Shown here: in pieces, positions 26,815 through 42,982 of the stretch
Layout of the letters: every line of letters begins with the position of its first letter
Position numbering within the stretch: position 1 is the stretch's first letter
Assembly: GCA_030432235.1 (NCBI GenBank)
Contig: JAUIHT010000001.1
Span: forward strand, 434,001-498,000
Origin: Verrucomicrobiia bacterium
GTDB taxonomy: Bacteria > Verrucomicrobiota > Verrucomicrobiia > Opitutales > Cerasicoccaceae
Direction: 5' to 3'
Length of the DNA: 64,000 nt
Position numbers and translations under genes: made by a program
Notes under the pieces: model-generated
What the model saw: the letters and a program-made list of their open reading frames with translations, nothing else
Databases searched by the model: none
What the model was told of the DNA's origin: nothing

Positions 26815-26843
26815 TTGACAGCATTGAATGCAGATGTATACAT
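26815..26843 (+). promoter_or_regulatory. Island B promoter module (TTGACA-N13-ATGTATACAT)
   Basis: TTGACA at 26815-26820 and the perfect palindrome ATGTATACAT at 26834-26843 share the geometry of the modules at 29143, 32401 (minus) and 38137. The palindrome covers the expected -10 (ATACAT with 17-bp spacing). A GntR regulator would block RNA polymerase here. It lies about 47 bases before the ATG at 26890. Confidence 0.65.
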
Positions 26844-26889
26844 ATTGGTCAAGGATTTCTTCTCTCTTCCGATTAAGTTGAAAACAAAC

Positions 26890-28071
26890 ATGACCCCCAA
26901 TATCTTGAAATCACTACGCAACTCATCTGTTTTGTTGCGGCGCGGAACCGGGCTTGGAATAGCCATTCTGGCCGCTCTGGTCTCACAGTCCAAGGCATCC
27001 GCTGAGATGGCGGTGGATGTCGATCTACAAAATATTCGCTATATCGATGAGGATGCGACGGATTACCGGGGCTGGCCCATGCTCACCCGCTTGGACAACG
27101 GCGACCTCATGCTGGTTTACTCGGGCGGTCGTGACTATCATATTTGCCCCTTTGGCCGTATTGACATGATACGCTCCTCCGACAACGGCGAGACTTGGTC
27201 CGAGCCGATGACGCTCGTGGACACACCGCTGGACGATCGCGATCCAGCCGTGCTGCAAACAAGCGAGAACGGTATACTGGTGACCTATAACTGCTCCAGC
27301 GTCTATCAGAAGCACATGAACGACCCGCAACGGCTGTTGGCCAAGGTTTACGGGGATGAATTGGAGGCAAATCTCGAACGCTGGAAAGCGCAGGACGCCC
27401 TCACGACGGGCGACGAAAAGAAGGCAATACAAGGCCAGTACCGTGGCTTTAATGCCGTGCGTTCGACCGATGGTGGGAAAACCTGGTCGAAGCCTTTTCC
27501 GATACCTGGCTTTAGCCCGCGTGGTCCTATACGGTTGAGTGACGGCTCGCTGTTGCATTTTTCCGGCCTCGGCGAAATCACCTGGATGTCCTATGACGAA
27601 GGGCTTACTTGGGAGAAAGTGGGCAAGCAGAACGTACCGGGGGGCGAAGATCATGCGGTACAAAACGCAGACGGCTCCATCGTTGCTCATGTTCGGCTCA
27701 AGGAAAATACGCCGCAGGGCCGCATCCAGCATACGGTTCAAATGCGCTCCGATGATAGCGGTCAGACCTGGACCGACCCTCGTCACATTGCCGATGGTTA
27801 TCCGTCACACCTGCTTCGATTGAAGGATGATTCGCTACTCATGACCTATGGTGTGCGCAAAGCTCCCTACGGCATCCGCGCTCGGGTCAGTCGTGATGCC
27901 GGCCTCACCTGGTCAGAGGAGCTGATCATATCGGACGATGGCGCGAGTTGGGACCTGGGCTATCCGAGTACGGTTGAGTTGCCGGATGGGCGTTTGCTGT
28001 CAATTTGGTACGAAGTGCCGGAAGGCCAGCGCAACGCCGGACTGAGGCAAGCCATCTGGCGCCTGCCGTGA
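26890..28071 (+). CDS. Secreted sialidase-like BNR/Asp-box protein 1
   Basis: A 393-residue exported six-bladed propeller. The ATG at 26890 gives a signal-like N-terminus ending near SKASA. Asp-boxes are visible: SSDNGETWS, STDGGKTWS, SYDEGLTWE, SDDSGQTWT and SRDAGLTWS. The first blade has YRGWPMLTRLDNGDLMLVYS where GH33 sialidases carry FRIP, so the first catalytic Arg is missing at that spot. It may thus be a sialidase relative with another specificity. It is closely related to the proteins at 29191 and 31184, sharing SGGRDYH--PFGRI. Confidence 0.75.
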   Translation: MTPNILKSLRNSSVLLRRGTGLGIAILAALVSQSKASAEMAVDVDLQNIRYIDEDATDYRGWPMLTRLDNGDLMLVYSGGRDYHICPFGRIDMIRSSDNGETWSEPMTLVDTPLDDRDPAVLQTSENGILVTYNCSSVYQKHMNDPQRLLAKVYGDELEANLERWKAQDALTTGDEKKAIQGQYRGFNAVRSTDGGKTWSKPFPIPGFSPRGPIRLSDGSLLHFSGLGEITWMSYDEGLTWEKVGKQNVPGGEDHAVQNADGSIVAHVRLKENTPQGRIQHTVQMRSDDSGQTWTDPRHIADGYPSHLLRLKDDSLLMTYGVRKAPYGIRARVSRDAGLTWSEELIISDDGASWDLGYPSTVELPDGRLLSIWYEVPEGQRNAGLRQAIWRLP

Positions 28072-28126
28072 TTTTCCGAATGAACCCGGTGGGTGGGTGC
28101 TATCATATTTGCTTCTATAATTCCTG

Positions 28127-28158
28127 TTGACTTTATTAGCGAATGTAGATGTATACAT
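28127..28158 (+). promoter_or_regulatory. Island B operator (ATGTATACAT) upstream of the aldolase gene
   Basis: TTGACT at 28127-28132 and the palindrome ATGTATACAT at 28149-28158; the spacing is 16, three bases more than in the other modules. A GAATG unit precedes the palindrome, as at 26826 and 29154. A Shine-Dalgarno sequence GAGGTAG before 28194 shows that this mRNA has a leader. Confidence 0.6.
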
Positions 28159-28193
28159 AAATATACAAAGCGAGATTTACTCGAGGTAGTTTG

Positions 28194-29018
28194 ATGGTGA
28201 AATTAAGAAATAGTCGTGTCTTGCGGGAAGTGCGCGCCAATCAGGTGGCCACTTGTGCAAAAATCAATTTAAGCGATCCACGCGTGGTCGAGCTGTGCGG
28301 CATGGCCGGTTTTTCTTCGGTATGGCTTTGCCTGGAGCATGTACCCAACGATTGGCAGACGATCGAGCATTCCGTTCGCGCCGCTAAAATTCACGATATG
28401 GATGTGATTGTGCGTGTGGCTCGCGGCTCTTACAGCGACTACATACGGCCTCTGGAGTGCGATGCGAGCGGGGTGATGGTGCCTCACGTGCAGTCGGCTG
28501 AAGAGGCGCGGGAAATAGTTTCCTTGTGCCGCTTCCAGCCCCGCGGCAAGCGCGCTCTGGATGGTGGTAATGTGGATGGAGCTTTTTGCAATGTCCCACT
28601 GACGGAGTACCTTGAGCATGCTAATGCCGAGCGCTATATAATCCTGCAGATTGAGTCTCCGGAGGCGGTTGAGCAGGTGGAGTCCATTGCGGCGGTGCCG
28701 GGTTATGACTTCCTGCTGTTTGGGGCGGGAGATTACACGCATCGTATTGGGAAGCCTGGTCAGTTCGATTGTCGCGAGGTGCATGTTGCCCGTGCCCGTG
28801 TGGAGGAAGCCGCCCGAAAGCATGGAAAAAGCTGCATGGCCGTCGGCCTCACACTGGCCGCGGAGGCACTCTTTTTGAGAGGCTACGGCATCGTGAGTCT
28901 TGCTTCGGATGTTGTGGGACTTGGCAATTACCTGCGTAATCAGGTCAAGGATTACCAGCCTGTGGTTGATGAGAAGGCTCTGGGCTCCTTGTATTCAAAA
29001 GAAGCTGCCGAGCTGTAA
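28194..29018 (+). CDS. HpaI/HpcH-family aldolase
   Basis: A 274-residue class II pyruvate-dependent aldolase of the HpcH/HpaI citrate-lyase-like family. Conserved features are FSSVWLCLEHVPNDW, a metal-binding Glu in LQIESPEAVEQV, and FGAGDYTHRIGKPG. Such enzymes cleave 2-keto-3-deoxy sugar acids to pyruvate and an aldehyde, so it may replace NanA-type or KDPG-type aldolases in the island B pathway. The ATG at 28194 follows GAGGTAG; an in-frame TTG one codon upstream is less likely. It has its own operator. Confidence 0.8.
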   Translation: MVKLRNSRVLREVRANQVATCAKINLSDPRVVELCGMAGFSSVWLCLEHVPNDWQTIEHSVRAAKIHDMDVIVRVARGSYSDYIRPLECDASGVMVPHVQSAEEAREIVSLCRFQPRGKRALDGGNVDGAFCNVPLTEYLEHANAERYIILQIESPEAVEQVESIAAVPGYDFLLFGAGDYTHRIGKPGQFDCREVHVARARVEEAARKHGKSCMAVGLTLAAEALFLRGYGIVSLASDVVGLGNYLRNQVKDYQPVVDEKALGSLYSKEAAEL

Positions 29019-29142
29019 GTATTTTGCACGTAATGGCGGGCTTGAGAACAAGCCGTTTGCATCTGATTTTCGCCTACCTCTCCTTGGCCGTATCTAGGAA
29101 GGATGGGGAGCTCCAGAAACTGAATCATCGGAATTCTTGGGG

Positions 29143-29171
29143 TTGACATATATGAATGTACATGTATGCAT
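29143..29171 (+). promoter_or_regulatory. Island B promoter module (TTGACA-N13-ATGTATGCAT)
   Basis: TTGACA at 29143-29148, then 13 bases, then ATGTATGCAT at 29162-29171, matching the 26815 module including TGAATG in the spacer. The ATG of the following gene is at 29191, leaving a leader of only about a dozen bases without a ribosome binding site. Confidence 0.65.
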
Positions 29172-29190
29172 ATTGAAAAGACTGTTTTAT

Positions 29191-30462
29191 ATGATACTTG
29201 TTCCATTCATCCCTGCTCCGGTTTTATCCCGGATTCGTTGCATTGCCATTCTTGGGTTGTTTCTTCCCTTGGCCATTCCCTTCTTGGTCGCTAACGAGCC
29301 GGATTTTACTGGCTCAAGCCAGAAGCGTGCTGGCGATGAAGCCGCGCAATCCGACTTAGCCGAAGGAGCGGCGGAGGGCATCGTCGTTCATGAAGTGAAG
29401 ACCATTACGCCCCCGGAGGTGGAATACGCTGGTTGGCCCATGCTCATTCGCACCTCCAGCGGTAAACTCATGGTGGTCTATTCCGGCGGGCGCGATTACC
29501 ATGTGGGGCCGTTTGGGCGCATTGAAATGATGACGTCCAAAGATGATGGGGAGACATGGACCTGGCCCCAGGTCATCCTCGATACACCTCTGGATGATCG
29601 TGGTACCGCGATACTGGAGACGGCTGATGGCACCCTTTTGGTTACCTTTATTGCCTCTACCGTATACAAGAGACATCTCAATAAGCCGGAGCGACATCTG
29701 AAAAAGGTGTTTGGCGACAATTTGGAGGAGCACCTGCATCGCTGGCGCCTGGCCGATGCCAGGACTACGCCTGAGGAGATAAGAGTGATTGAAAAGGACT
29801 ACGGAGGTCGGCTCCTCATCCGTTCTACAGACGGCGGCCTTACCTGGTCGGAAACCATTACGGTGCCTTGCTTCAGTCCTCGCGGGCCGATGAATCGCGC
29901 TGACGGTACGGTGCTTTATGTCTCCGGCAATGGCAAGATTGCCGGCGCGTGGTCCAGCAAGGATGAGGGCCAGACTTGGGAGATGATTTCCGAGTTGCCG
30001 ACACGTGCCGGTGAATCACATTCGGTGCAGGCCGCCGACGGGACCATCGTCGCCCACGTGCGGGAAAAACTGGCAACGGACAAGGGCAAGGTGCAGTATA
30101 CCATCCAGACCGAATCCTCCGATGGCGGACTGACCTGGTCGGAGGCGCATAAAGTTGCCGACGGCTATCCGTCTCAGCTGCTGAAGTTGAACGATGATGC
30201 GCTGTTGATGACTTACGGTATGCGGACCAAGCCTTACGGAATCCGCGGGAAAATAAGCCGCGATAATGGACAAAGCTGGTCGCCGGAGTTTGTCATCTAC
30301 GACGAGGGAGCTTCCTGGGATATTGGCTATCCCTGCTCAGTGCAGCTTCCCGACGATCGCATCGTGACTATTTGGTATGAAGCTCCTGAAGGCGATTACC
30401 ATGCTCAGCTACGGCAGGCTGTTTGGTCTATTGATACCGCCGTCGCCAAGGCCGATGGATAG
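29191..30462 (+). CDS. Secreted sialidase-like BNR/Asp-box protein 2
   Basis: A 423-residue paralog of the protein at 26890, also exported (hydrophobic stretch AILGLFLPLAIPFLVA near the N-terminus). Asp-boxes SKDDGETWT, STDGGLTWS, SKDEGQTWE, SSDGGLTWS and SRDNGQSWS are present. The first blade reads YAGWPMLIRTSSGKLMVVYS, again without FRIP, followed by GGRDYHVGPFGRIEM. An insert of about 25 residues lies between the signal and the propeller. It is an accessory glycan-cleaving or glycan-binding protein; the substrate is unknown. Confidence 0.75.
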   Translation: MILVPFIPAPVLSRIRCIAILGLFLPLAIPFLVANEPDFTGSSQKRAGDEAAQSDLAEGAAEGIVVHEVKTITPPEVEYAGWPMLIRTSSGKLMVVYSGGRDYHVGPFGRIEMMTSKDDGETWTWPQVILDTPLDDRGTAILETADGTLLVTFIASTVYKRHLNKPERHLKKVFGDNLEEHLHRWRLADARTTPEEIRVIEKDYGGRLLIRSTDGGLTWSETITVPCFSPRGPMNRADGTVLYVSGNGKIAGAWSSKDEGQTWEMISELPTRAGESHSVQAADGTIVAHVREKLATDKGKVQYTIQTESSDGGLTWSEAHKVADGYPSQLLKLNDDALLMTYGMRTKPYGIRGKISRDNGQSWSPEFVIYDEGASWDIGYPCSVQLPDDRIVTIWYEAPEGDYHAQLRQAVWSIDTAVAKADG

Positions 30463-30492: not shown

Positions 30493-31191
30493 TTAGTCGT
30501 CGGACATCATTGCGTGCAAGGTAGGGTTGATGGCTTCGGCGAAGATGACATAGCCCTCGGTGTTGGGATGCAGCTGGTCCGGCATCAGAGTTAGCGGGAT
30601 CTTGCCCTCCGCGTCGACAAAGCGGTCTCCGATGTCGAGGAAGACGATGTTGTTATCCGTAGCGGCGAATTCTTCCAGGTACTTGTTAATCTCAATGCTT
30701 TGCAGCCGTCTTGCGGAATCGGGTTCATTGCGCGGCAGTATTGCGAGTAGGAGCAATTTGCTGTCCGGCAATTTTACCCGGATAAGATCGATTATTTGTG
30801 TGAGCCCTTCCTCGATTTCGCGGGTAGTATTACGCGGCGTGAGGTTGTTGGTGCCGGCCATCAGAACCACGACCTGCGGAGCGATGCCTTCAAGCTCTCC
30901 GTTTTGAAGCCGCCAGAGAATGTGCTGCGTGCGGTCGCCATTGATGCCGAAGCACGCTGCGTTCAGGGGGGCATACTCGCGGTCCCATACGCTTTTCCCG
31001 CGCTTGGGGTCTTCCCAGTATTGCGTAATGGAGTCCCCGATGAAAAGGATGTCGATATCGCCTTCCTGAGCTCTTTGGAGGAAGCGCTGATGGAAGGGCT
31101 CGGCACGCGGGACAGGTGTGGTCGCCGTGTTGGCTTTTGCCAGTGTCATGCCTGCGAGCAGGATAAGCGTTACTAGGTGGAATCTACTCAT
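30493..31191 (-). CDS. Secreted SGNH/GDSL esterase
   Basis: A 232-residue exported hydrolase. The signal peptide ends near TLAKANT. The SGNH blocks are clear: FIGDSITQYW (Ser), FGINGDR (Gly), MAGTNNLTP (Asn) and MPDQLHPN (Asp-His). The family removes acetyl groups from sugars or lipids; PAF-acetylhydrolase-like and NanS-like enzymes belong here. Its ATG lies inside the last 8 bases of the sialidase-like gene at 31184, so the two are co-translated; deacetylation before glycan cleavage is a plausible joint role. Confidence 0.8.
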   Translation of the reverse strand: MSRFHLVTLILLAGMTLAKANTATTPVPRAEPFHQRFLQRAQEGDIDILFIGDSITQYWEDPKRGKSVWDREYAPLNAACFGINGDRTQHILWRLQNGELEGIAPQVVVLMAGTNNLTPRNTTREIEEGLTQIIDLIRVKLPDSKLLLLAILPRNEPDSARRLQSIEINKYLEEFAATDNNIVFLDIGDRFVDAEGKIPLTLMPDQLHPNTEGYVIFAEAINPTLHAMMSDD

Positions 31192-32371
31192 TAATGGCCT
31201 TTGGTAATGTCCATCGGGCTTGGCGCAGGGCGGCCTTTTTTGTGTCTTCGGGTACTTCGTACCATACGGTGATCAGTGTGCCGTCGCTGAGTTCCGCCGT
31301 ACTGGGATAGCCGAGATCCCAGGTCGGGCCGTCAGCATAGATGATGAATTCTTCGGACCAGGTCTTGCCATTGTCGTCACTGATTTTGCCTCGGATGCCG
31401 TAAGGTCGCTTGCGGTAGCTGTAGGTCATCAGGAGACGGCCATCGGCGAGCCTTGCCAGATGGGTGGGGTAGCCGGTGACGCCGATTTCATGAAACTGGG
31501 TCCAGGTGGACCCTCCATCGTGGGACTCGGTTTGCAGCGTCTTTTTCTCTTTGATCCCGGCTCCTGACAGGCGGGCCTGAACGATCAGTGTTCCGTCCTC
31601 GGCTTCTACGGCATGGAGCTCGTGAAGGACAGCATTGGATTCCCCTTCACGTGGCGCAAGATAACTGAGCAGCTCCCAGGTTCGGCCGTCGTCATCGGAT
31701 ACCCAGACGCCGATTTTCTCATCCTCCTGCCACAGCTCCTTGCCGGCGTAGAGGAGACGGCCGTCGCGCATGAGGATAGGTCCGTGTGGGCTGTTGCAGG
31801 GCGCAGGTACGCGTTCACTCCAGGTGCGCCCGCCGTCTTCAGAGCGAAGCAGCCAGCTCCCGACATCGGCTTCCTTTTCCTCCTGGCTTGAACCCAGCTC
31901 CGCTTGACGCCAGGCGTCGAGATGAGCTGGGAGGTCATCGCCAAACGCTTTTGCTAACAGGCGCTCGGGGTTGTTCAGGTGTCCTTGATAGGCGAGGGAA
32001 GTGAAGGTCGTGGCCAATAGCGTGCCCTTCTGCGTTTCCACAAGGCCTCCGTCGCGTACATCGATGATGCTGTCCAGCAGCACGCGAGGGGAACTCCAGT
32101 TTTTCCCGTCGTCTTCCGAAACGATGAGCTCGAGACGGCCGAAAGGGCAGACGTGGTAATCACGGTTCCCCGAGTAAACCACCATCAGCCTGCCATTCTG
32201 CAGGCGGGTAAGCGTAGGCCAGCCATGATAGTCCTCCGGGCTGTGGCTGATGGTGCGAACATCAACAACCTCAGCCTTGGGCGATGAGTCTGGTTGGCTC
32301 GCGACCACGGTCACTAGGTGGAGTATGGCGAAGAGCAGGAGGGGCAGGATACGGAAGGTAAACAGATGCAC
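31184..32371 (-). CDS. Secreted sialidase-like BNR/Asp-box protein 3
   Basis: A 395-residue paralog of the two other sialidase-like proteins. I place the start at the GTG at 32371, giving the signal VHLFTFRILPLLLFAILHLV, because the ATG at 32446 would lie upstream of the predicted promoter (32401-32378). Asp-boxes SEDDGKNWS, SEDGGRTWS, SDDDGRTWE, SHDGGSTWT and SDDNGKTWS are seen. The first blade reads YHGWPTLTRLQNGRLMVVYS, without FRIP. It overlaps the SGNH esterase gene by 8 bases. Confidence 0.7.
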   Translation of the reverse strand: MHLFTFRILPLLLFAILHLVTVVASQPDSSPKAEVVDVRTISHSPEDYHGWPTLTRLQNGRLMVVYSGNRDYHVCPFGRLELIVSEDDGKNWSSPRVLLDSIIDVRDGGLVETQKGTLLATTFTSLAYQGHLNNPERLLAKAFGDDLPAHLDAWRQAELGSSQEEKEADVGSWLLRSEDGGRTWSERVPAPCNSPHGPILMRDGRLLYAGKELWQEDEKIGVWVSDDDGRTWELLSYLAPREGESNAVLHELHAVEAEDGTLIVQARLSGAGIKEKKTLQTESHDGGSTWTQFHEIGVTGYPTHLARLADGRLLMTYSYRKRPYGIRGKISDDNGKTWSEEFIIYADGPTWDLGYPSTAELSDGTLITVWYEVPEDTKKAALRQARWTLPKAINE

Positions 32372-32377
32372 TTTTAG

Positions 32378-32406
32378 ATGAATGCATAGGAATGCAAGTC
32401 GGTCAA
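32378..32406 (-). promoter_or_regulatory. Island B promoter module (TTGACC-N13-ATGCATTCAT)
   Basis: On the minus strand TTGACC (32406-32401), 13 bases, then ATGCATTCAT (32387-32378). This fits the relaxed palindrome ATGYATNCAT and the exact N13 spacing. The GTG start lies six bases after it, so the message would be nearly leaderless. Confidence 0.6.
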
Positions 32407-32472
32407 TTCCATTTAGTACAGACTGATGAGTTTTTCTCATGAACATTTCATTTATGCCTTATATTTTTCTTG

Positions 32473-32500
32473 TTGACTTAATGAACACGTATGTATGCAA
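32473..32500 (+). promoter_or_regulatory. Island B promoter module (TTGACT-N12-ATGTATGCAA)
   Basis: TTGACT at 32473-32478, 12 bases, then ATGTATGCAA at 32491-32500 (one mismatch to the palindrome). The ATG of the PEP-CTERM gene is 8 bases after it, exactly as at 38165-38174. Confidence 0.6.
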
Positions 32501-32508
32501 TAGCCTCC

Positions 32509-33273
32509 ATGAAGACAATATTTACTGCAACGATCGGCTCTCTCTTCACTCTAATACTCCTGGCGGGTACGACCGCCAGCGGCGTGGTAATCGCCTCGTA
32601 CGACTTTGATGGTCTGTCGGGGGATGAGGTGACCCTCGCGGCAGCCTCCTCGGAAGCGAACATATCAGCCAGTGTGCTTTCGCGTGGGGCGGCTTACGAT
32701 GGCTACGCGGCGGCATTCACCACGAACGGATTCGGTACGCAGCCCGGTGCCGTTGATGAGAATGATGCTTTCAGGCAGCTTCATTACACGATTCAGGATG
32801 CCGCAGATAATGACGGCTACTACCAACTGACGCTTACACCGGCTGAGGGTTATCAGCTGTCTGTCGACACTATCGTTTTTGGAAGTCGTCGCGCATCCAA
32901 TCGGACCGGCCCCAATTTAATCGGAGCGCGCTCGAGTTTAGACACCTACACGGCAGATTTGGTGTCGGGGGTAGACGCCAGCGGTGCGGGTGGAAATGTG
33001 TCAGCTGTTACGACATTGGATTTTGGCAGTTCTCTGCAGAATGTCGCCACAGAAGTTACCATCAGGATCTACGGCTATGACCGCAACAATGGTTTGGACC
33101 GGGGCTTTGGCATCTGGACGATTTCTAATCAGAATGCTTCGGACGTCGATGGCGCTGGAACTGGAAACTTCGTGATTAACGGCAGCATCAGTCCGGTGCC
33201 GGAACCAGAAACCTATGCGCTGATTGTGTCAGCCTTGGCTTTCGGTCTGGTGGTGTGGCGCCGCCGTCGGTAA
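32509..33273 (+). CDS. PEP-CTERM protein 1 (paralog family of island B)
   Basis: A 254-residue exported protein from ATG 32509 (an upstream in-frame ATG at 32491 lies within the operator). The signal ends near TTASG; the body starts IASYDFDGLSGDEVTL and carries LSRGAAYDG, then TIVFGSRRASNRTGPN and IRIYGYDRNN. The C-terminal sorting signal is PVPEPETYALIVSALAFGLV with WRRRR. The same domain, with or without anchor, is encoded at 33353, 38174 and 38853. It is likely a surface glycan-binding protein; function unproven. Confidence 0.8.
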   Translation: MKTIFTATIGSLFTLILLAGTTASGVVIASYDFDGLSGDEVTLAAASSEANISASVLSRGAAYDGYAAAFTTNGFGTQPGAVDENDAFRQLHYTIQDAADNDGYYQLTLTPAEGYQLSVDTIVFGSRRASNRTGPNLIGARSSLDTYTADLVSGVDASGAGGNVSAVTTLDFGSSLQNVATEVTIRIYGYDRNNGLDRGFGIWTISNQNASDVDGAGTGNFVINGSISPVPEPETYALIVSALAFGLVVWRRRR

Positions 33274-33297
33274 TCCTTCTGGACGCAACCAAATCGT

Positions 33298-33329
33298 AGG
33301 CGTGTTTCTTAGGGAAGACGCCTTTTTTA
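33298..33329 (+). terminator. Rho-independent terminator
   Basis: AGGCGT and ACGCCT form a stem around a 14-base loop, followed by a T-run at 33323-33328. It lies between the PEP-CTERM gene and its anchorless paralog, so it may be a partial terminator that lowers expression of the second gene. Confidence 0.6.
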
Positions 33330-33352
33330 TCTTCTAGCTGAAAGGAACCGTA

Positions 33353-34003
33353 ATGAATACTCATAAGGGATTATGGCTTGGGCTTTTCTTGCTGGCTGCC
33401 ATTGGCATGCGGGCAGAGGTGTTGGTGAAATTCGATTTCACCGGCTATGATGGCCTGCAAGAGCAAACAAAACCTGAGGCGAAATCCGTCGCGGACCACC
33501 TTAAAGTGTCGGCCATTAAGCGCTCCCCGATTTATCGGGCTCCCGAGAATGGCAGTTCATTCCTGGAGAGCTCCATGGGTTTTGTGCCCACGGTGTCTGA
33601 TGGTGCTCTGGAAGATACCTATAGTGTCGCGACTGCGGTGGAAAAGGGCGCCTATTTTGAGATTACTCTGACGGTTGCTCCCGGGTATAAACTGACGATC
33701 GATTCCATCCAGTTGGGAACGAAACGCGCTTCGAAGAAAACAGGGCCCAACTATTTCGTGCTGCGGTCCAATCAGGACGATTTTTCCAAAGACATTGCCG
33801 ACGGTGAAACAGCCGGTGAGGGATACGATGTGCCTCGGAACGTAACGCTTCAAACGTTCGGTGAGTTGAGTGATCTTCGAGGCGAGGTCGTATTGCGCTT
33901 TTACGGTTGGGGGCGCGATGCCTGGAGCACCAAAACCGGACTGTGGGCCATCGCCAATCATTCCGAGGTCGGCGGCCTGGTAATCGAAGGTACTGTTCGC
34001 TGA
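33353..34003 (+). CDS. Secreted anchorless paralog of PEP-CTERM protein 1
   Basis: A 216-residue exported protein with a signal ending near GMRAE and a good ribosome binding site (AAAGGAA before 33353). The body shares the family pattern VKFDFTGYDG, SIQLGTKRASKKTGPNYFVL and VVLRFYGWGRD with the protein at 32509, but ends at VIEGTVR without PEP-CTERM. It is probably secreted free or bound to its partner. Pairing with an anchored paralog recurs at 38174/38853. Confidence 0.75.
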   Translation: MNTHKGLWLGLFLLAAIGMRAEVLVKFDFTGYDGLQEQTKPEAKSVADHLKVSAIKRSPIYRAPENGSSFLESSMGFVPTVSDGALEDTYSVATAVEKGAYFEITLTVAPGYKLTIDSIQLGTKRASKKTGPNYFVLRSNQDDFSKDIADGETAGEGYDVPRNVTLQTFGELSDLRGEVVLRFYGWGRDAWSTKTGLWAIANHSEVGGLVIEGTVR

Positions 34004-34834: not shown

Positions 34835-37800
34835 CTTCGTTCAGCCAACGGAATGACACAATGGAGAACTTTCTGCCAAAGGTCTGGTTGTTCGTGTTGG
34901 TGGCGGGATACTTTTCTGCCGGGTCGGCAGTATCATCAACATACTCGGGCTGGCGCTGTACAATCGCTTCACACCAGGCCTTGCCGGTGGTTTGGCTGCT
35001 GATGGTGTCGGTGACGCTGCCATAGGCCCGGATACGGAAGGTGTCACCTCGTGCGGTCAGGTAGGGGCCGATTTGGGTGAGGATATCGGCTTGGGTCAGG
35101 AAGCCGGGAGCGGCTGCCGAGCGTGGGCCGTCACCGGCCCCGGGGTAAGGGAAGGCCTTGCCTGTTTGCGCCATGGATTCGGGGGCAAGATCATCCTCCA
35201 GTGAGTCATTGATGCCGGGCGGCGCCAAGGGGTCGTTTTTGTTGCTGGTCGCGTCGATTGCGGCCTGTAGGGCGCCGGTTAAGTTTTGCTTGGAATTTCC
35301 CGGGGCATCGAGGTCACGGTTGACAAAGTCCGACACGGACAGGAAGGGGCCGCGGGCTTTGACTTCGTCGACGATTGCCTTGGCCAATGCCTCCAATTGC
35401 GCGTCCGGCGTGCCATCGATTGTTCGAAAGCCACGCCAGGGATCGCTATCGTTGCCGGATGGAAGGCTAAAGCGTGGAAAAGCCAATTCAAGATCGGCGA
35501 TGCTTCCCCTCACGGGCGCAAGTGCGAGAGGATTGACGTAGTCGAAGCGCTCACCCGCCCAGCCGGACAGGACTGCTTTCCAGGCTTCGACGGAGGTGGA
35601 GTTGACGTTAAACATACCGTCCACGCTCATCTGGGTAGCGGCGGTGTCGTAACGGTCGAGTTTGTTTTCTGTGGCTGTTGTAGCTAAGGTATAGCGCGGG
35701 TTGCCGTCGACGGCGTTTACCGTGCCGCTTGCGTCGACGCGACTGGAGAAAAAGAAGTCGTCCCACAGGACTTCGTTGAGGCGGTAAGAGAAGTCCTTCG
35801 CATCATGAGCCACATATGGAGAGGCGTAGCTGTTGCCGACGGCATAGGCGGGTTCCCAGGCCTCGGAAAGGTTCAGGTGCTGGAATTGGCCGAGGGAATA
35901 GAGCGGGCGAGTGGGTACTTCAAAGAGCGTAACGAAGCTTTCGCTGCCCGTGTTATCCGGGCCCCAAAAGGTATGCGTGAACTCACCGCTCCCGAAGGGA
36001 GAATCTACCGGAAAGGCGGTTTCATAAATAGGATAATGATAGCCGTCGAAAACGGGGTTTCCTAGCCACAGTCCACCCGGGTCCTGCTCACTGTTTATCG
36101 CGCGTGGGTTGTAGTCGGCCAACCAGCGGCTTCCGCCGGTGCCGTCCGATCTGGTTGGGTATTGGCCGGGTGAGGGGATGGCGAGTCTGCTTGAGTCTCT
36201 TGTCTGATGTTTCATGGGAATCGCGGAGTCGGCTTCGTTCCATTGCGTGGTGACCGCTCCGAGGGATGAGAATAGGCTGTCGTCAATGGCTTGTACGATT
36301 GTGTTCCCCTGATAGAGTTTGAAATGCAGGTAGCCCCAACGGACGCGGACATAGCAATTGACCGCGCCACTGGTCACCGGATCGAGATCGCTTTGTGGAA
36401 TGGTGCCGTTAGAAACGGAAACATCCTTCCATGTGTAATTCTCTGTATCGTACTGATTGGTCAGTTCGGCGCCGCTGGAATCGTATTCTGCTGAGTTTGC
36501 CAGCGAAAAAACCTTCACTTCACCGGGGCGAAAACCGATCGCATTCATTTTTAGTTTTAGAGGTGCTCCGAAGACATTGGCAAAGGTACTCTGCAGGTCA
36601 TAGTTGCTATCGTCTTTGTAGCTTTTGCCGGCCGCGAGCTGAGTCCACATAAATAGTATCAGAGCCCTGTTGAACTGGATTTCGACTGTGTAATCGGAGG
36701 GCTCCAGGGCGACATTGTAGGGATTGGCGATGGCTACGATCGGCTTCAAGGTCCAACGCGGAAGCGAGGGTTCCGTGCCCGATGTCAGCATCGCCCCGAG
36801 ATTGAGTTGTACTGCCGTCAAGATCGGGGCGACGCCGTGCTGCGTTGCTGTCTGGGCCTGTACTTCGATGCTGGGAACTTCGTTAGCGAGGGTGGCATTT
36901 TTGAAAGGGAGCTGGTAGTAGGAACGAAGGAGCCCCCAGCTTGGGCCGCCGCTGTATAGGCTGGCGTTATTCGCATAAGCGGCATCGTCGCTGAATCCGG
37001 ATTCGAGGATGCGGCTGAGATCCTTGCGGAATCCGCCGTCCATCACATCGACAAGGAGCCCCTGACTGATAAACGAAAGGTCCGCTTGGGAACGCTGAAA
37101 CGGGATTTCGTAGTCGGGACCGGCCATGGCTCCTTCATGGTAGCTTTGGGCCCGTGTAATGGATTCCGGCAGGACGGCGGTATTGCTCTGGAATAACGTC
37201 TCAAACTGTTCCATCCACGCTAATCTGGGATCGTAGTCTTTTTTATTTGCGGATGGATCGTTATAGGTACTGGGAAATAGATGGTTGTCCGAGGCAGGGG
37301 CACTTTTTGCCATAAGGGATTCGTCGCCGATCCACCATGCCGCTTCGTCATGTGACGTACCGGAATTGGAGAGGGTGATGACTTCCCCTTGGATGGTAAT
37401 CGGAGTGCCGGTGGCGGTCCTGTAGTTGAGAAGGGGGATGGAATTGCTTATGTCGGGCGTCGCCGGATCCGGAGAGCCACTCGAGGAAATGAGCCAGTGG
37501 GGCTCTCCGTAGGGTAGGCTGTCGGTGGCCGCGGACACTGAAGTGGGCCAGACGCCCGTCCAGAGCCGTGCCGCATCAGAGGTGCCTGGCAGGATTTCCG
37601 CTCGGGCGGTGATCCGGCAATCGTCGCCCGCATATTTTTGTAATTCCCCGATGGCGATGGAGAGGGCCGTCAGCGCATTCTCCTGGGCCTTGCTTGTTGT
37701 CTGTGTGGTGCCCATGGAGCGGGTTTCTATTCTCACCAGTGTGGCCAACGAGACCAGAAGCAAGAATACGAAGGACAACAACGCTATGGCTGCAATCAAA

Positions 37801-37856
37801 GCAAACCCGTGTGATGAGCCTGGGTTTTCTGCATGAAATGTCTTAATGCGCGTCAT
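34824..37856 (-). CDS. Verru_Chthon cassette protein A-like
   Basis: A 1010-residue protein from ATG 37856 (an ATG four codons upstream touches the operator). The N-terminus is GFALIAAIALLSFVFLLLVS, a pilin/PilX-like hydrophobic helix, followed by RIETRSMGTTQTTSKAQENA and AIGELQKYAGDD-RITARAEI, the pattern I associate with Verru_Chthon cassette protein A. The rest is a large extracellular domain. The usual B, C and D prepilin-like partners are absent here. Operator ATGTATACAT lies at 37869-37878, so this envelope protein appears sugar-regulated. Confidence 0.75.
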   Translation of the reverse strand: MTRIKTFHAENPGSSHGFALIAAIALLSFVFLLLVSLATLVRIETRSMGTTQTTSKAQENALTALSIAIGELQKYAGDDCRITARAEILPGTSDAARLWTGVWPTSVSAATDSLPYGEPHWLISSSGSPDPATPDISNSIPLLNYRTATGTPITIQGEVITLSNSGTSHDEAAWWIGDESLMAKSAPASDNHLFPSTYNDPSANKKDYDPRLAWMEQFETLFQSNTAVLPESITRAQSYHEGAMAGPDYEIPFQRSQADLSFISQGLLVDVMDGGFRKDLSRILESGFSDDAAYANNASLYSGGPSWGLLRSYYQLPFKNATLANEVPSIEVQAQTATQHGVAPILTAVQLNLGAMLTSGTEPSLPRWTLKPIVAIANPYNVALEPSDYTVEIQFNRALILFMWTQLAAGKSYKDDSNYDLQSTFANVFGAPLKLKMNAIGFRPGEVKVFSLANSAEYDSSGAELTNQYDTENYTWKDVSVSNGTIPQSDLDPVTSGAVNCYVRVRWGYLHFKLYQGNTIVQAIDDSLFSSLGAVTTQWNEADSAIPMKHQTRDSSRLAIPSPGQYPTRSDGTGGSRWLADYNPRAINSEQDPGGLWLGNPVFDGYHYPIYETAFPVDSPFGSGEFTHTFWGPDNTGSESFVTLFEVPTRPLYSLGQFQHLNLSEAWEPAYAVGNSYASPYVAHDAKDFSYRLNEVLWDDFFFSSRVDASGTVNAVDGNPRYTLATTATENKLDRYDTAATQMSVDGMFNVNSTSVEAWKAVLSGWAGERFDYVNPLALAPVRGSIADLELAFPRFSLPSGNDSDPWRGFRTIDGTPDAQLEALAKAIVDEVKARGPFLSVSDFVNRDLDAPGNSKQNLTGALQAAIDATSNKNDPLAPPGINDSLEDDLAPESMAQTGKAFPYPGAGDGPRSAAAPGFLTQADILTQIGPYLTARGDTFRIRAYGSVTDTISSQTTGKAWCEAIVQRQPEYVDDTADPAEKYPATNTNNQTFGRKFSIVSFRWLNEDEI

Positions 37857-37868
37857 AAATGAACTCAT

Positions 37869-37878
37869 ATGTATACAT
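37869..37878 (-). promoter_or_regulatory. Island B operator upstream of the Verru_Chthon A-like gene
   Basis: Perfect palindrome ATGTATACAT 12 bases before ATG 37856. The -35 is weak: no TTGAC at N13. It shares a 305-bp divergent region with the module at 38137; nothing else is visible in that gap. Confidence 0.5.
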
Positions 37879-38136: not shown

Positions 38137-38165
38137 TTGACCAATATGAATTCGAATGTATGCAT
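38137..38165 (+). promoter_or_regulatory. Island B promoter module (TTGACC-N13-ATGTATGCAT)
   Basis: TTGACC at 38137-38142, 13 bases, ATGTATGCAT at 38156-38165. The ATG at 38174 is 8 bases further, predicting a leaderless transcript. Confidence 0.65.
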
Positions 38166-38173
38166 ATAAAGCC

Positions 38174-38830
38174 ATGAATGCAAAAATATTCTCTCTGGCT
38201 GCTGCGCTAATGGCTCTGTTCGGGACTTCTCTTCAGGGGGTAACGTTGGTTTCCTATGATTTTTCGGGCCAGCCTGGTAACCAAACAACCACGTCGACTT
38301 CCGTCGTAGCCAGTGGCCTCAGTGCCGATCCGTTGAGCCGTGGGGCGGGCTTGGGCTCAGTCGCCTTTGCCGACAGTATGTCGGGTACTGGTTGGGACGT
38401 GGGTGATTTTACACCGTCGGATAACGATTATTTCGAATTTTCCATTACTCCGGATTCGGGGTATGAGATGGATGTTACGTCTATTGACCTTTCCATCCTG
38501 CGCTCATCGTCGGGAGCTAAGAACTACGCGATATTTACCAGTCTGGATAATTATGCGTCGGCAGCCACCAATACTTATTTGGATATTGGAACCGGCACCC
38601 AGAATTTAAGTTTTACCTTCCTGACTCCTTCCAATTTTGAGGGATTGGCGAGTGGTTTGACTTTACGCTTGTATGGCTGGAATGCAACCACCGGTGGCGC
38701 GGCCTATTTGCAAAGTACATTTACGGCGAGTGGGTCTGTCAATGTGGTGCCTGAGCCGTCCACCTATGCCCTGTTTATGTCGCTGGGATTGGTGGCCTAT
38801 CTGGTATGCCGCCGACATCTGCGGAAGTAA
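38174..38830 (+). CDS. PEP-CTERM protein 2
   Basis: A 218-residue exported protein of the same family as 32509. The ATG at 38174 gives the signal MNAKIFSLAAALMALFGTS; an in-frame ATG at 38156 falls inside the operator. The body has VSYDFSGQPGN, LSRGAGLGS, SPDSGYEMDVTSIDLSILR and LRLYGWNATTGG. It ends PEPSTYALFMSLGLVAYLV with CRRHLRK, a PEP-CTERM signal. It heads a likely operon with 38853 and 39510. Confidence 0.8.
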   Translation: MNAKIFSLAAALMALFGTSLQGVTLVSYDFSGQPGNQTTTSTSVVASGLSADPLSRGAGLGSVAFADSMSGTGWDVGDFTPSDNDYFEFSITPDSGYEMDVTSIDLSILRSSSGAKNYAIFTSLDNYASAATNTYLDIGTGTQNLSFTFLTPSNFEGLASGLTLRLYGWNATTGGAAYLQSTFTASGSVNVVPEPSTYALFMSLGLVAYLVCRRHLRK

Positions 38831-38852
38831 TAGCTCCATAGGATTCAAAACA

Positions 38853-39458
38853 ATGAGGCTCTTGCTCGCTCTCCTGTTTGCCGGTGCAGGCGTGATTGCG
38901 TCTGCCGATACCGCTCCAGCGGAGGACGGTGTCTTGGCCAGCTATTATCTAGGAGGGCTGAGCGGTAATGAATACGAACTGGACGTGACCCATGTTGTGC
39001 CTGGAGTCACGGCTGGGGCGCTCAGCCGTGGTAATGGTTTGAATTACACGGTGCGCGCCGAGAATACCTTTTGTGCCAATGGTTGGACTCGATCCGAGGA
39101 ACCGGCAGAGAACGATTATTTTTCCTTCACGATAGCGCCTCTGGAGGGCTACGAAATCGACTTGGAAGCACTGGATTTTACGGAATTTGTTAATCGCAAC
39201 GGACCGGCTAATTTTGTCATCCGAAGCAGTCTGGACGATTTCAAAAGCAACTGTTTCGGGCCTGTTGGCATCTCCGATATCGCGCCGGTGAACCTCAGGG
39301 AAATCCCGCTGAGCGATGCTTTCCTCGGATTAACGAAGCCGGTGACCTTTCGATTGATTGCATGGGGTTCCAAGAGTAGCGGCAGTGGCGTTTGGGGCAT
39401 TGGGAATCCTAAAGTGCCCACCCGTTTGGTGGTGCGTGGTCAGGCGAGGCGTCCCTGA
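38853..39458 (+). CDS. Secreted anchorless paralog of PEP-CTERM protein 2
   Basis: A 201-residue exported protein; the ATG at 38853 starts MRLLLALLFAGAGVIASAD. The family pattern ASYYLGGLSGNEYELDV, LSRGNGLNY and FRLIAWGSKSSGSGVWG is kept, but there is no sorting signal. It begins 22 bases after the PEP-CTERM gene stop, so it is probably in the same operon. Confidence 0.75.
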   Translation: MRLLLALLFAGAGVIASADTAPAEDGVLASYYLGGLSGNEYELDVTHVVPGVTAGALSRGNGLNYTVRAENTFCANGWTRSEEPAENDYFSFTIAPLEGYEIDLEALDFTEFVNRNGPANFVIRSSLDDFKSNCFGPVGISDIAPVNLREIPLSDAFLGLTKPVTFRLIAWGSKSSGSGVWGIGNPKVPTRLVVRGQARRP

Positions 39459-39509
39459 CATCTACGGTGTTGCTGGCATCTTCGTAAATTGTATTATCAT
39501 TTTCAAGAT

Positions 39510-41135
39510 ATGTTCCTGCTTCGAGGTGTCAGCTGGTTTGTCTTCATCGCCTGTTTTTCATTCGCGTGGGGGCAGGCAGCTGGGCCGGTAGATGAGCAGC
39601 GGAGCCATTCTGTCGGGCGCATTCTATTTAACGATGATGGCGATTATACCTATGTTGGAAACTCGCCAGATGAGTGGCGAGTCCATCTCGCGCAAATGCT
39701 CGAGGGATTGAATCGGATACCGGTAACGGGTTTGGTTTACTCACTAGCTACGGGGACAGATGTTCTGCTTTACCCGAGCCAAGCGGGCAGCTCTTGGGGA
39801 TGGAAGCAAACGGAGATTCCGAGTCGCCTTTCCCATATCCGGCAATTCCCCATCGCGGTTCAGTCAGGCTATGACGGTGTTCGCTGGGCTGCTGAAGATG
39901 CGATGTCCCTGGGGTTGGCCTTTGTGCCGGCTTTTCGTATGAACGATGCCCATTACACAAGTGGTAACGCGTCTTACCTAGAAGGTCGGTTCTGGGAGGA
40001 AAATCGTGGTCTTTACACTTTTCAACAACCCCCCTATCCGGTTGGTAAGCTCAATGGGTATAAAGAACTCCTTGATTTTTCCCACCAGGAAGTGCGGGCC
40101 CACCGCCTGGCAGTAATCGAAGAGGCCATTAGCCGTTACACGGATGTGTTGGATGGCTTTCTCCTGGATTTTATGCGAACTCCCGCCTTTTTCGACCTGG
40201 ATATGGCCGAGGATAAGGCGCCCTTGATGACGGAGTTGGTGCTGCGTGTAAGGCAAGCGCTTGATTGCGTGGAGGCGGAGAAGGCGCAGCGTATTCCGTT
40301 AATTGTTCGCGTGCCGGCCACGTTGAATAATTGTCGGCGAGTGGGCTTAGATCTGCCGGAATGGATGCGTCAGGGCATTGTCCAAATCGTGATTCCCGCG
40401 CAGGCGATGACGCTTGCTCATGATTCTCCGTTGCAGGAGTTCATCGATCTTGGGGAGCCGCAGGGGATCCTTGTATATGCGTCCATTTACGAACGAACGA
40501 ATTACACCTGTTCTTTCAGTCGGCAAGCGCCGGACAAGAGTGACTTTATCGGACGCAGTGCTTCCGCTCAGCTTCTGCGTGGAGCGATTAACAATTACCG
40601 TCACATGGGAGCGGCGGGATTTGAGCTCTATAATTTTAATCTGCCTCTCAATGAGGCTCAGGGGAAGGCCTTTCAGTCTTTAGATTCGTCGGATAGCGAT
40701 GCTGGATTGGCGAGGGTCTATGCCATTACCCCGGCCTATTTTTTTGACTATCTCGATATCTATGAGCCAGCGAAGCAAATCCCGTTTCCCCTTTCAAAAG
40801 CGAAGCCGGCTCTTCGCCTGAATCTGTATTTCGGTGAAAATCCTGCCGGACTGAATGCGTCGGATTACTGCGGCTTAAGACTGGGTTTTGCTCGCGACAT
40901 CCAGCCTGACGCTTTGCGGGTCTCGTTGAACGGGAATATCCTGGAAGCGAGCAGCAGTAGCTCGCTTAATGTGAAGCAGGGACCCAGGGCCTTCCTGCAA
41001 TACGCCATACCCGATGCATCCGATGTGTTGCGGGAGGGTGGAAATGATTTGCTCATAACCGTGACCGATGCCGAATCAACGGTGGAAAACACCCTTGTCG
41101 AGGTACAGGTGGGAATTCTGTCTGAAGGGAGCTAA
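39510..41135 (+). CDS. Secreted TIM-barrel glycoside-hydrolase-like protein
   Basis: A 541-residue exported protein from ATG 39510 (MFLLRGVSWFVFIACFSFAW). The central region looks like a GH10-type or GHL10-like barrel: VQSGYDGVRWAAEDAMSLGL, DVLDGFLLDFMRTPAFF and GAAGFELYNFNLP. A beta domain follows (LRLNLYFGEN, LRVSLNGNIL). I do not recognise a specific GH family. It is the third gene after promoter 38137 and overlaps the aldo/keto reductase end by 4 bases (convergent). Confidence 0.65.
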   Translation: MFLLRGVSWFVFIACFSFAWGQAAGPVDEQRSHSVGRILFNDDGDYTYVGNSPDEWRVHLAQMLEGLNRIPVTGLVYSLATGTDVLLYPSQAGSSWGWKQTEIPSRLSHIRQFPIAVQSGYDGVRWAAEDAMSLGLAFVPAFRMNDAHYTSGNASYLEGRFWEENRGLYTFQQPPYPVGKLNGYKELLDFSHQEVRAHRLAVIEEAISRYTDVLDGFLLDFMRTPAFFDLDMAEDKAPLMTELVLRVRQALDCVEAEKAQRIPLIVRVPATLNNCRRVGLDLPEWMRQGIVQIVIPAQAMTLAHDSPLQEFIDLGEPQGILVYASIYERTNYTCSFSRQAPDKSDFIGRSASAQLLRGAINNYRHMGAAGFELYNFNLPLNEAQGKAFQSLDSSDSDAGLARVYAITPAYFFDYLDIYEPAKQIPFPLSKAKPALRLNLYFGENPAGLNASDYCGLRLGFARDIQPDALRVSLNGNILEASSSSSLNVKQGPRAFLQYAIPDASDVLREGGNDLLITVTDAESTVENTLVEVQVGILSEGS

Positions 41136-42064
41136 CCGGTTGCGGTGGTGGCGCACGGAGATTTTCGATTCGGCCATTCCGCCGGATTTAAAATCCAACC
41201 GGGTACTTGTGGAATTGTTTCCAGAGCAGCGTTGGTGCGGGATTCGCCTCCGCTAGAGGCGTGCAGGGTACAGGTGTTTTGTTTGACCTGATCTGTTGTC
41301 TCAACTCCGATGACGACGGAACTGATCAGGGGATTTTCGACCATCAGTCGCAGCAGGTATTCGGATAAAGGAATTCCGTGGGAGCGCGCTTGGCGGCGCA
41401 GGGCATCCCGCGCGGGCTTAATGGCGAGCAAGTGGGATGGCGTGGAATCATCGTCCATGAGCAGCAACCCCTGCAGGAAGGCGCTACGGGCAAAAACCAG
41501 GATATCCCGCTCGGCGCAGGTCTGTAGCAGACCGGTTTCGGTGAAGCGGTGGTCGACGGCATTGGTGGGGATTTGGACGGCGTCCACGCCGGAGTGGTCC
41601 AGTGCTTGTTTTAGCCCTTCGGGGCTGGCGACGGATACGCCGGTCAGCTCGCAGAGTCCTTGCTCGCGCATCTTTTGAAGGATGTCCCAGTATATCAGAT
41701 TCTCCTCGCGGTGAAGCAGGACGCAGGGCAGGGCATCGAGCTCCAGGCAGCGCAGAGAATTCTGGATGCTTTGGCGGATGCGTGTTTCCGCCTCGCTAGC
41801 GGTCAGATCGGCTGGCAGGGGCTGTACCTTGGTAACGACCGTAAATGCCTCTTGCAGATTCGCCTCTCGGAGCGCCTGGCCTAGAACGGCCTCGCTCTGG
41901 CCGTAGGCGGCCGCGGTGTCGATGCAGTTGATGCCTTCGCTCGCAGCGGTTTCCAGCATCTGGCAAACTTCACTTACGCTGGGCGGACCACTGGTATTGG
42001 CCACGCCATAGGCCTGGCCGAGCTGGGCGGTGCCCAAAGTAAGTTTGGAAAGGGTGAAGCTCAT
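41132..42064 (-). CDS. Aldo/keto reductase
   Basis: A 310-residue NADPH-dependent reductase of the AKR superfamily: LTLGTAQLGQAYGVAN, CIDTAAAYGQSEAVLG (Asp and Tyr of the tetrad), TKVQ (Lys) and VLLHREENL (His). The ATG overlaps the end of the SDR gene by 4 bases (ATGA). Together with the SDR it probably oxidises or reduces a sugar intermediate. The last 30 residues are unusual (ESRTNAALETIPQVPGWILN) and may be a family-specific tail. Confidence 0.85.
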   Translation of the reverse strand: MSFTLSKLTLGTAQLGQAYGVANTSGPPSVSEVCQMLETAASEGINCIDTAAAYGQSEAVLGQALREANLQEAFTVVTKVQPLPADLTASEAETRIRQSIQNSLRCLELDALPCVLLHREENLIYWDILQKMREQGLCELTGVSVASPEGLKQALDHSGVDAVQIPTNAVDHRFTETGLLQTCAERDILVFARSAFLQGLLLMDDDSTPSHLLAIKPARDALRRQARSHGIPLSEYLLRLMVENPLISSVVIGVETTDQVKQNTCTLHASSGGESRTNAALETIPQVPGWILNPAEWPNRKSPCATTATG

Positions 42065-42867
42065 TTTGCGGTGTAGCCTCCATCAACCATCAGATTGGTG
42101 CCGGTGATGTAGGCCGAGGCATCTGAAGCCAGGAAGGCAATCGGCCCCTGAATGTCGGCTAGGTTTGCAGGGCGTCCCAGCAGGGTGCGCTGACTGTAGC
42201 GTTGTACAAACTCGGCGGACATGCGTTCGCTCAACACGCCACCGGGGCTGAGGCAGTTGCAGCGGACCCCCTGCTGGCCGTACTTGGCCGCGATGTAACG
42301 GGTGAAATTGACCATGCCACCCTTGTGGAAGAAATAGTCGGGTATGTAACCATCCATGCCAAGCCCCTCGTAGAGGGTGGCGTCCGGTCCGACGACCCCC
42401 TGGATGGAGCCTATATTAATAATAGAGCCGCGGCCTTGCCCGGCCATTTGGTCCGCCGCAAGCCGGGTTAAGGCAAAGAGCCCCGTTGCATTCGTTTGCA
42501 TGCTTTCCTGGAATGCCTCGGCCGGATCCTGGTGGGATTTCATCGGGCGCGTGGCCGCATTATTGACGAGAACGTCTATTCTTCCCGATTCCTCCATGAT
42601 CTGGGCTACCATCGCCTCTATGGAGGAAGTGTCAGCCTGATCGTAGGCTACGGCCTTGGCCTGATGCCCCTGGGAGACACGCTCTTCGGCGGCTTGTTTC
42701 AGCTTCTCCAGGTTTCGTGACGCCATCCACACGAGTGCTCCGGCTCCGCATAGGGCGTCCACAATAGCTTGGCCGTAGAGGCCGGCAGCTCCGGTTACAA
42801 TTGCAATCTTGCCATCCAAAGAAAACTCGTTAACCGAAAACTCAGTCATTTCTAATACGTTAATCAT
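42061..42867 (-). CDS. Short-chain dehydrogenase/reductase
   Basis: A 268-residue SDR: IVTGAAGLYGQAIVD (cofactor loop), NNAATRP, NIGSIQGVVGPD (Ser region), and YIPDYFFHKGG where Tyr and Lys keep the YxxxK spacing. Motif wording such as LYEGLGMDGY and YFFHKGGM is known to me from SDRs near nonulosonate or sugar clusters, but the substrate is not proven. The operator at 42902 lies upstream. Coupled by overlap to the AKR gene. Confidence 0.85.
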   Translation of the reverse strand: MINVLEMTEFSVNEFSLDGKIAIVTGAAGLYGQAIVDALCGAGALVWMASRNLEKLKQAAEERVSQGHQAKAVAYDQADTSSIEAMVAQIMEESGRIDVLVNNAATRPMKSHQDPAEAFQESMQTNATGLFALTRLAADQMAGQGRGSIINIGSIQGVVGPDATLYEGLGMDGYIPDYFFHKGGMVNFTRYIAAKYGQQGVRCNCLSPGGVLSERMSAEFVQRYSQRTLLGRPANLADIQGPIAFLASDASAYITGTNLMVDGGYTAK

Positions 42868-42901
42868 CTTGCAATCAGCGGCAAGCCGAATATGGACACA
42901 T

Positions 42902-42911
42902 ATGCATACAT
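42902..42911 (-). promoter_or_regulatory. Island B operator upstream of the SDR-AKR operon
   Basis: ATGTATGCAT read on the minus strand, 34 bases before the SDR ATG. No TTGAC at N13. It lies in the divergent region shared with the regulator gene. Confidence 0.5.
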
Positions 42912-42951
42912 TTTTAAAAACAAAAGCTTTTTTGGCTGCTGCTGTAAATGA

Positions 42952-42982
42952 ATGCTTGCATACCTAAGTATGCATGCATAAA
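42952..42982 (+). promoter_or_regulatory. Autoregulatory operator region of the GntR gene
   Basis: Three near or exact copies: ATGCTTGCAT (42952-42961), AAGTATGCAT (42966-42975) and ATGCATGCAT (42970-42979). TTGCAT (42956-42961) with TAAATT (42979-42984) is a possible promoter at 17-bp spacing. The gene ATG is at 42992. Confidence 0.5.

Follow-up and report, generated by a model that had tools for sequence, protein, structure and literature searches.

In a 64,000-nucleotide stretch of a Verrucomicrobiia bacterium genome (assembly GCA_030432235.1, contig JAUIHT010000001.1, positions 434,001 to 498,000 of the forward strand; hereafter the window), the upstream regions of a catabolic gene island repeat the 10-base palindrome ATGTATRCAT, which is very probably, judging from sequence, the docking site of the GntR repressor encoded in the same cluster. 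We consider it highly likely that the palindrome is the operator of this VanR-type FCD GntR protein (42992-43720), and that the sites form a local regulon repressed by steric exclusion and released by a ligand of the sugar-acid type. An initial annotation of the stretch had listed nine upstream regions with the palindrome or a close variant and assigned them to this regulator. All of the sites were found at the coordinates it gave, and the assignment is supported by their clustering in the genome, by footprints at the regulator's own promoter and around its cluster in related genomes, and by the operator of the repressor Atu1419. The candidate operators, one upstream element and the regulator gene are given below.

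26815-26820, plus strand: TTGACA, resembling a -35 element.
26834-26843, unstranded: candidate operator ATGTATACAT, exact, before a sialidase-like gene (26890-28071) and divergent from the NanM-like gene at 25620-26741; TTGACA at 26815, N13; weaker copy TGAATGCA 10 bp upstream, at 26825-26832.
28149-28158, unstranded: candidate operator ATGTATACAT, exact, before the HpcH/HpaI aldolase gene; TTGACT at 28127, N16.
29162-29171, unstranded: candidate operator ATGTATGCAT, exact, before the second sialidase-like gene; TTGACA at 29143, N13.
32378-32387, minus strand: candidate operator variant ATGCATTCAT (read on the plus strand), one mismatch, before the third sialidase-like and the GDSL esterase genes; TTGACC at 32406-32401 on the minus strand, N13.
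32491-32500, plus strand: candidate operator variant ATGTATGCAA, one mismatch, before the first PEP-CTERM gene; TTGACT at 32473, N12.
37869-37878, minus strand: candidate operator ATGTATACAT, exact, directly before the gene for a prepilin-like protein of 1014 amino acids; no TTGAC, TTGGC at N16.
38156-38165, plus strand: candidate operator ATGTATGCAT, exact, before the second PEP-CTERM gene; TTGACC at 38137, N13.
42902-42911, minus strand: candidate operator ATGTATGCAT, exact, before the operon of SDR and aldo/keto reductase (AKR) genes; no TTGAC.
42958-42973, unstranded: candidate tandem operator of the regulator itself, GCATAC-N4-GTATGC, with GYATRC cores at 42958 and 42968 (10 bp pitch).
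42992-43720, plus strand: FCD-type GntR regulator, 242 amino acids, VanR-like by Pfam GntR and FCD matches, AlphaFold2 model and nearest folds.

Six of these sites match ATGTATRCAT exactly (ATGTATGCAT being the reading of one strand), those at 32378 and 32491 carry one mismatch each, and 42952-42979 holds a series of variants. The identical TTGACN-N13-palindrome spacing reported in the initial annotation was seen in all four regions named, with N12 and N16 in two further ones. Allowing one mismatch, 21 strand-matches were counted in the window against 3.8 expected, and none of 100 shuffles reached 21. Across the genome (5.72 Mb in 42 contigs), the exact palindrome gave 13 strand-hits at 10 distinct places, compared with 3 strand-hits for the reversed-pattern control; six of the 10 places lie within the 16 kb between 26834 and 42911, a clustering whose binomial probability is about 1e-13 (16.1 kb out of 5725 kb). 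TTGAC followed by a flexible gap and the exact palindrome occurs four times in the genome, always in the island, and the control gave none. When all 1024 ten-base palindromes were compared, only ATGTATACAT was present in the island in two or more exact copies, and at up to one mismatch it had 6 matches there against a mean of 0.48 and a maximum of 3 for 29 AT-matched palindromes. The comparison with the rest of the genome proposed in the initial annotation thus came out unequal, the palindrome being enriched in the island, and does not refute the assignment to the regulator.

A position model produced 14 genome matches up to E = 10, of which 12, including the best eight (E <= 0.042), fall in the island, a result that is partly circular because seven of the island's own sites were used to build the model. 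The two matches outside the island are both on contig C39 (E 0.55 and 0.80) and were treated as chance level. Since the model found no comparable site elsewhere, the putative regulon looks local. Among the matches listed for TTGAC-N14-ATGTATRCAT, two places outside the window differ by one mismatch (C3:447160 and C11:193711) and were likewise treated as chance level; at up to three mismatches, at least 110 strand-hits were listed against at least 57 for the reversed control, totals that say little because TTGAC is a promoter word. One candidate absent from the initial annotation was considered on the minus strand at 18350-18378, outside the island, where TTGACT-N13-ATGTATACTT precedes the open reading frame 17621-18328. 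The same stretch also reads TTGACT-N16-TATACT before a two-gene unit (17107-17646 and 17621-18328, the second gene with a PIN-like domain), and it was rejected as a regulon member, since an ordinary promoter with some similarity to the module is the more probable reading.

The regulator has distant relatives, with matches at E <= 1e-35 in 13 of 372 same-order genomes, its own included, and 36-41% identity in the others. In 50 verrucomicrobial loci, GTATAC lies within 120 nucleotides upstream of gntR in 37, and 24-27 nucleotides before the start in 34. Outside the gntR promoter and up to 8 kb from the gene, TGTATACA was counted 24 times against 0.8 expected under a first-order model, with redundant loci kept. 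Six control palindromes were near or below expectation (0, 1, 4, 2, 1 and 0 against 1.0, 0.6, 3.1, 1.7, 1.7 and 9.7). The gene content is in agreement: around these 50 genes, some of them on short contigs, relatives at E <= 1e-20 were found for the HpcH/HpaI aldolase in 31 loci, the Gfo/Idh protein (gene at 23221) in 29 and the SDR (42061) in 26. In genome G008, of the same family, TGTATACA stands between divergent SDR and AKR genes and again before the gene for the 1014-residue protein, and in G030 (locus L113) it precedes the GntR-linked ortholog of that gene on the same contig. It is very unlikely that the sites belong to another FCD GntR protein or a different regulator encoded elsewhere in the genome: they cluster around the gntR gene at 42992-43720, its own promoter included, and follow its relatives across genera. 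Such a regulator could be sought among four FCD GntR paralogs in the genome (L012-L015; 22-26% identity), none of which has GTATAC in the 400 nucleotides upstream of its alignment-inferred start, a stretch that looks coding for L013. This alternative draws on the occurrence of GTATAC upstream of 14 of 30 more distant FCD regulators; as the motif is widespread in the family, it does not by itself name the paralog.

The regulator, scanned with six additional N-terminal residues, matched Pfam GntR with 59 bits (cut-off 27) and FCD with 85 bits (cut-off 24.3). Its AlphaFold2 model, built with 35 sequences, has a mean pLDDT of 92.9, and the top-ranked solved folds are VanR-type or unassigned FCD proteins, namely 7u5q, McbR, Atu1419 and PmiR (TMq 0.64-0.73). 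VanR-type entries mostly scored 0.60-0.73, with the exception of 3c7j, also VanR, at 0.49-0.51; FadR entries scored 0.46-0.52 and NanR 6on4_A 0.44. In our reading of the model, the FCD part comprises six long helices and one short turn after the wing and lacks the additional helix of FadR, and helix 1 starts at residue 4. As modelled, the protein is a VanR-type FCD GntR regulator. Placement in the FadR subgroup was rejected, given the missing FCD helix and boxes of ATGT/ACAT instead of TKGT/ACMA, as was the E. coli NanR type, with no (GGTATA)3 operator, no N-terminal extension and an NCBIfam NanR score of 61.2 bits against a cut-off of 260. Residues D136, H140, H192 and H214, which we take from the family to be the FCD metal ligands (Asp/Asn and three His), are invariant in 13 sequences; among 35, H140 and H192 remain invariant and D136 and H214 are conserved in at least 90%. 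The sequence ATGTATACAT fits the palindromic type NyGTNxACNy given for operators of FCD GntR regulators in the available text of PMC4494728, in keeping with its putative operator role.

Counting the better of the two sides at a score of at least 4 of 6, a second, weaker GYATRC-like copy lies exactly 10 bp from the main core at 21 of the 26 sites that are not in gntR promoters (2-8 at other offsets), at 17 of 24 gntR-promoter sites (0-10) and at 7 of 8 sites in the island (0-6, the 6 belonging to offset +14). At the regulator's own promoter, where the initial annotation had claimed sites, both copies are full. The predicted operators are thus tandem and unusually regular. With a consensus from the island sites, the weaker copy has its higher score towards the -35 at five of eight sites (26834, 29162, 32378 minus, 32491 and 38156), scores equally on both sides at 28149, and falls on the gene side at the minus-strand sites 37869 and 42902; this distribution argues for a protein site over a promoter element. 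Identification of the upstream element as a -35 box was rejected, since TTGAC stands apart from it and the last two sites have their copy towards the gene. None of 20000 shuffles equalled the upstream element, a figure that overstates its significance because the consensus was derived from the same sites. Among 26 gntR promoters of relatives, 23 have G at +10 and 24 have T or C at +11, which fits an operator half better than a -10 box. An explanation of this +10 element as a -10 box alone was rejected in part, also in view of its presence at 21 of 26 sites away from gntR promoters; an overlap with the -10 box remains likely.

These features bear on a different reading, in which the module would be the promoter of a dedicated or unusual sigma factor, with TTGAC as -35 and ATGTATRCAT as -10. 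The constant N13 spacing of four sites would agree with it, as would a TAT placed 16 nucleotides from TTGACN and the arrangement TTGnnn-N15-18-TATnnn around the core in 15 of 26 non-redundant gntR promoters of relatives (1.15 in shuffles). The core is symmetric, however, the weaker copy does not follow the direction of transcription, and three island sites have no TTGAC; in the relatives, moreover, the palindrome lies between the TTG and TAT elements and hence forms no fixed -10. We therefore give this reading very little weight and retain the palindrome as candidate operator.

At the N13 sites the arrangement TTGACN-N16-TATRCA places the palindrome over the expected -10 position. The statement in the initial annotation that it would cover the -10 box is accordingly borne out by geometry there and not by a scan for the sigma-70 consensus; as no island site was among the hits of that scan, the overlap is one that we infer from the spacing. 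With start codons of our choice, ATG follows the palindrome by 46, 35, 19, 8 and 8 nucleotides at 26834, 28149, 29162, 32491 and 38156, respectively. Both PEP-CTERM genes (starts at 32509 and 38174; 32491-32509 and 38156-38174) thus have their ATG 8 nucleotides past the palindrome; if the palindrome is the -10 element, little or no leader would remain in their transcripts. Activation in place of repression by GntR appears unlikely. Activated promoters often have poor -10 matches, as these promoters do, but activators rarely bind over the -10 and start region, where these sites lie. Atu1419, whose identical operator also covers a -10 box, is described as a repressor in the available text of PMC7797058.

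Several observations weigh against the assignment of the palindrome to this GntR protein as a repressor of these promoters. Three of the nine island sites (37869 minus, 42902 minus and 42970) have no TTGAC, and the strict sigma-70 scan returned 10 hits, not above shuffles (12.1), with no island site among them. The position model found no site before the island's Gfo/Idh gene, though its relatives are neighbours of gntR in more than half of the 50 loci. GTATAC was absent within 120 nucleotides in 13 of the 50 verrucomicrobial loci and present in 14 of the remaining 30, more distant ones. In a set of 14 relatives of gntR that overlaps in genomes with the 50 loci (G008, for example, is both L030 and L107), 11 have GTATAC within 60 nucleotides upstream and L030, L032 and L036 do not; three further relatives (L050, L053 and L054) all lack it in the upstream stretch examined, with L050 carrying GTATGC 16 nucleotides upstream of gntR. 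Finally, Arg31 of Atu1419 corresponds to Phe27 in the island regulator.

In the mechanism that we propose, a GntR dimer would bind TGTATRCA, and the weaker copy, offset by one helical turn (10 bp), would be taken by a further dimer or by an additional DNA-binding domain. At the target promoters with N13 spacing, the palindrome would take the -10 position (TTGACN-N16-TATRCA) close to the start codon, so that bound GntR should block RNA polymerase. The protein would probably be freed by a compound of the pathway, a sugar acid or ketodeoxy acid that chelates metal, and its release would switch on the entire cluster, surface proteins included. We infer from the sites that the cluster genes would share one response, as the initial annotation had proposed. 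The gene content (SSF symporter, NanM/kelch-like protein, three BNR sialidase-like proteins, aldolase, AKR, two SDRs, a lactonase-like amidohydrolase and a D-Ser-dehydratase-like protein) reads as sugar-acid catabolism, and the cluster in G008 has additional aldehyde dehydrogenase, SMP-30 lactonase, DHDPS-like and RraA-like genes. This reading makes a sugar acid or ketodeoxy acid the probable ligand. The genes of the island are arranged as follows.

24175-26741, minus strand: NanM/kelch-like and SSF symporter genes (Pfam), possible divergent targets of the 26834 site by position.
26890-28071, plus strand: BNR_2 sialidase-like protein.
28191-29018, plus strand: HpcH/HpaI aldolase.
29191-30462, plus strand: second BNR_2 sialidase-like protein.
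30493-32446, minus strand: GDSL esterase and BNR_2 sialidase-like protein.
32491-34003, plus strand: PEP-CTERM protein and a protein without family match.
34058-37868, minus strand: two-gene cassette of the 1014-residue prepilin-like protein and a 258-residue partner; TIGR02600 below cut-off, paralogous family.
38156-41135, plus strand: PEP-CTERM protein and two proteins without family match.
41132-42867, minus strand: aldo/keto reductase and SDR.
43808-46600, plus strand: amidohydrolase/lactonase-like, SDR and D-Ser-dehydratase-like proteins downstream of gntR, putatively in its operon.

A tRNA-Arg (ccg) at 22985-23059 marks the left edge of the catabolic island; insertion of the island at this tRNA was considered and rejected, a second copy of its 3' end having been sought in the window and not found at up to three mismatches.

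The cassette at 34058-37868 belongs to a large paralogous family. The label Verru_Chthon A given to the larger protein (34824-37868) in the initial annotation did not hold, as TIGR02600 matched residues 21-81 with 17.7 bits against a cut-off of 332.3. Matches to this protein at E <= 1e-40 were found in 37 of the 372 same-order genomes, its own included, where 91 match pieces correspond to 35 loci with the window copy, by our grouping of the pieces by position. Among the 20 of the other 34 loci that were examined (L206-L225), 18 have the large gene followed, in the same orientation, by one for a partner of 226-310 residues; at the two exceptions, L215 and L223, the following gene is unrelated. 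These 18 partners and the window protein at 34058-34834 form one BLAST homology group, seven of them matching the window protein directly with 22-28% identity. The core TGYATRCA was present upstream of the three GntR-linked orthologs (window, G008 and G030) and at none of the 20 other copies in the genome within 200 nucleotides; nor was it found within 400 nucleotides of five relatives in other genomes that were not seen near this GntR (L150-L153 and L166). Two of these, L150 and L151, have a different palindrome-like stretch in common upstream, TTTCATTAAATGAAA, as if under another regulator. Neighbours of the cassette copies (72 of 151 open frames scanned; first 25 of 68 families) included 5 LacI, 3 AraC-type helix-turn-helix and 5 sulfatase matches and several glycoside hydrolase families. 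We tentatively suggest, as a possibility of less than even probability, that each carbohydrate cluster in this lineage may carry its own copy of the surface cassette (a prepilin-like protein of 1000-1400 residues and a smaller partner) wired to the regulator of that cluster, the copy in the GntR island being wired to the tandem TGTATRCA operator. Such an arrangement would resemble the SusC/SusD pairs of Bacteroidota, which are similarly wired to cluster regulators. A literature search returned, among the papers listed, none on a prepilin-like two-gene cassette of this kind.

The regulator and its sites provide a candidate regulator-operator pair for Verrucomicrobia, for which our search of one literature library listed no worked-out GntR regulon, and suggest that surface proteins (PEP-CTERM and prepilin-like) are also under the control of a catabolic repressor. 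The footprint of TGTATACA with a weak copy at +10 could serve to locate genes controlled by this group of regulators in further genomes of the Opitutales. The site type is known from another bacterium; the pairing of the sites and their apparent extension to surface-protein genes merit experimental study.

Among characterized systems, E. coli NanR, an FCD GntR of sialic-acid catabolism, is described in the available text of PMC8012715 as binding a (GGTATA)3 operator whose repeated units are occupied by several dimers. The family and the repeated operator units are shared, whereas the units are direct repeats in NanR and a palindrome here, and the island regulator has no long N-terminal extension and matches the NanR fold more weakly. 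Weaker boxes 7-12 nucleotides from the palindrome centre were reported by Suvorova et al. (2015) for 13 groups of the FadR subfamily (PMC4494728, available text). These additional half-sites are the same kind of feature as the weaker copy described here, which differs from their range of distances by its single +10 spacing across several genera.

The closest parallel is Atu1419 of Agrobacterium fabrum, and a full-text literature search for GntR with ATGTATACAT returned its report (PMC7797058) alone. In the available text, Atu1419 (PDB 6z74, 6za0, 6za3, 6za7 and 6zab) is a VanR-type FCD repressor that binds the ten-base ATGTATACAT overlapping the -10 boxes of atu1418 and atu1420, was crystallised on this sequence, and contacts DNA through Ser44, Arg45, Thr46 and Arg49, with Arg31 as a phosphate contact. 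It differs from the island regulator in sequence (about 24% identity), in its pathway, which concerns hydroxycinnamic acids, and in its layout of two operators 190 bp apart that a tetramer could loop, compared with putative operators that are distributed here along 16 kb and mostly have a weak copy 10 bp away. The operator sequence is nevertheless the same letter for letter, the -10 overlap and metal-binding FCD domain of Atu1419 are predicted here too, and residues S40, R41, T42 and R45 of the island protein are identical to the four aligned DNA contacts of helix 3 (Ser-Arg-Thr...Arg). The shared operator and contacts make the assignment of the palindrome to this GntR regulator chemically plausible.

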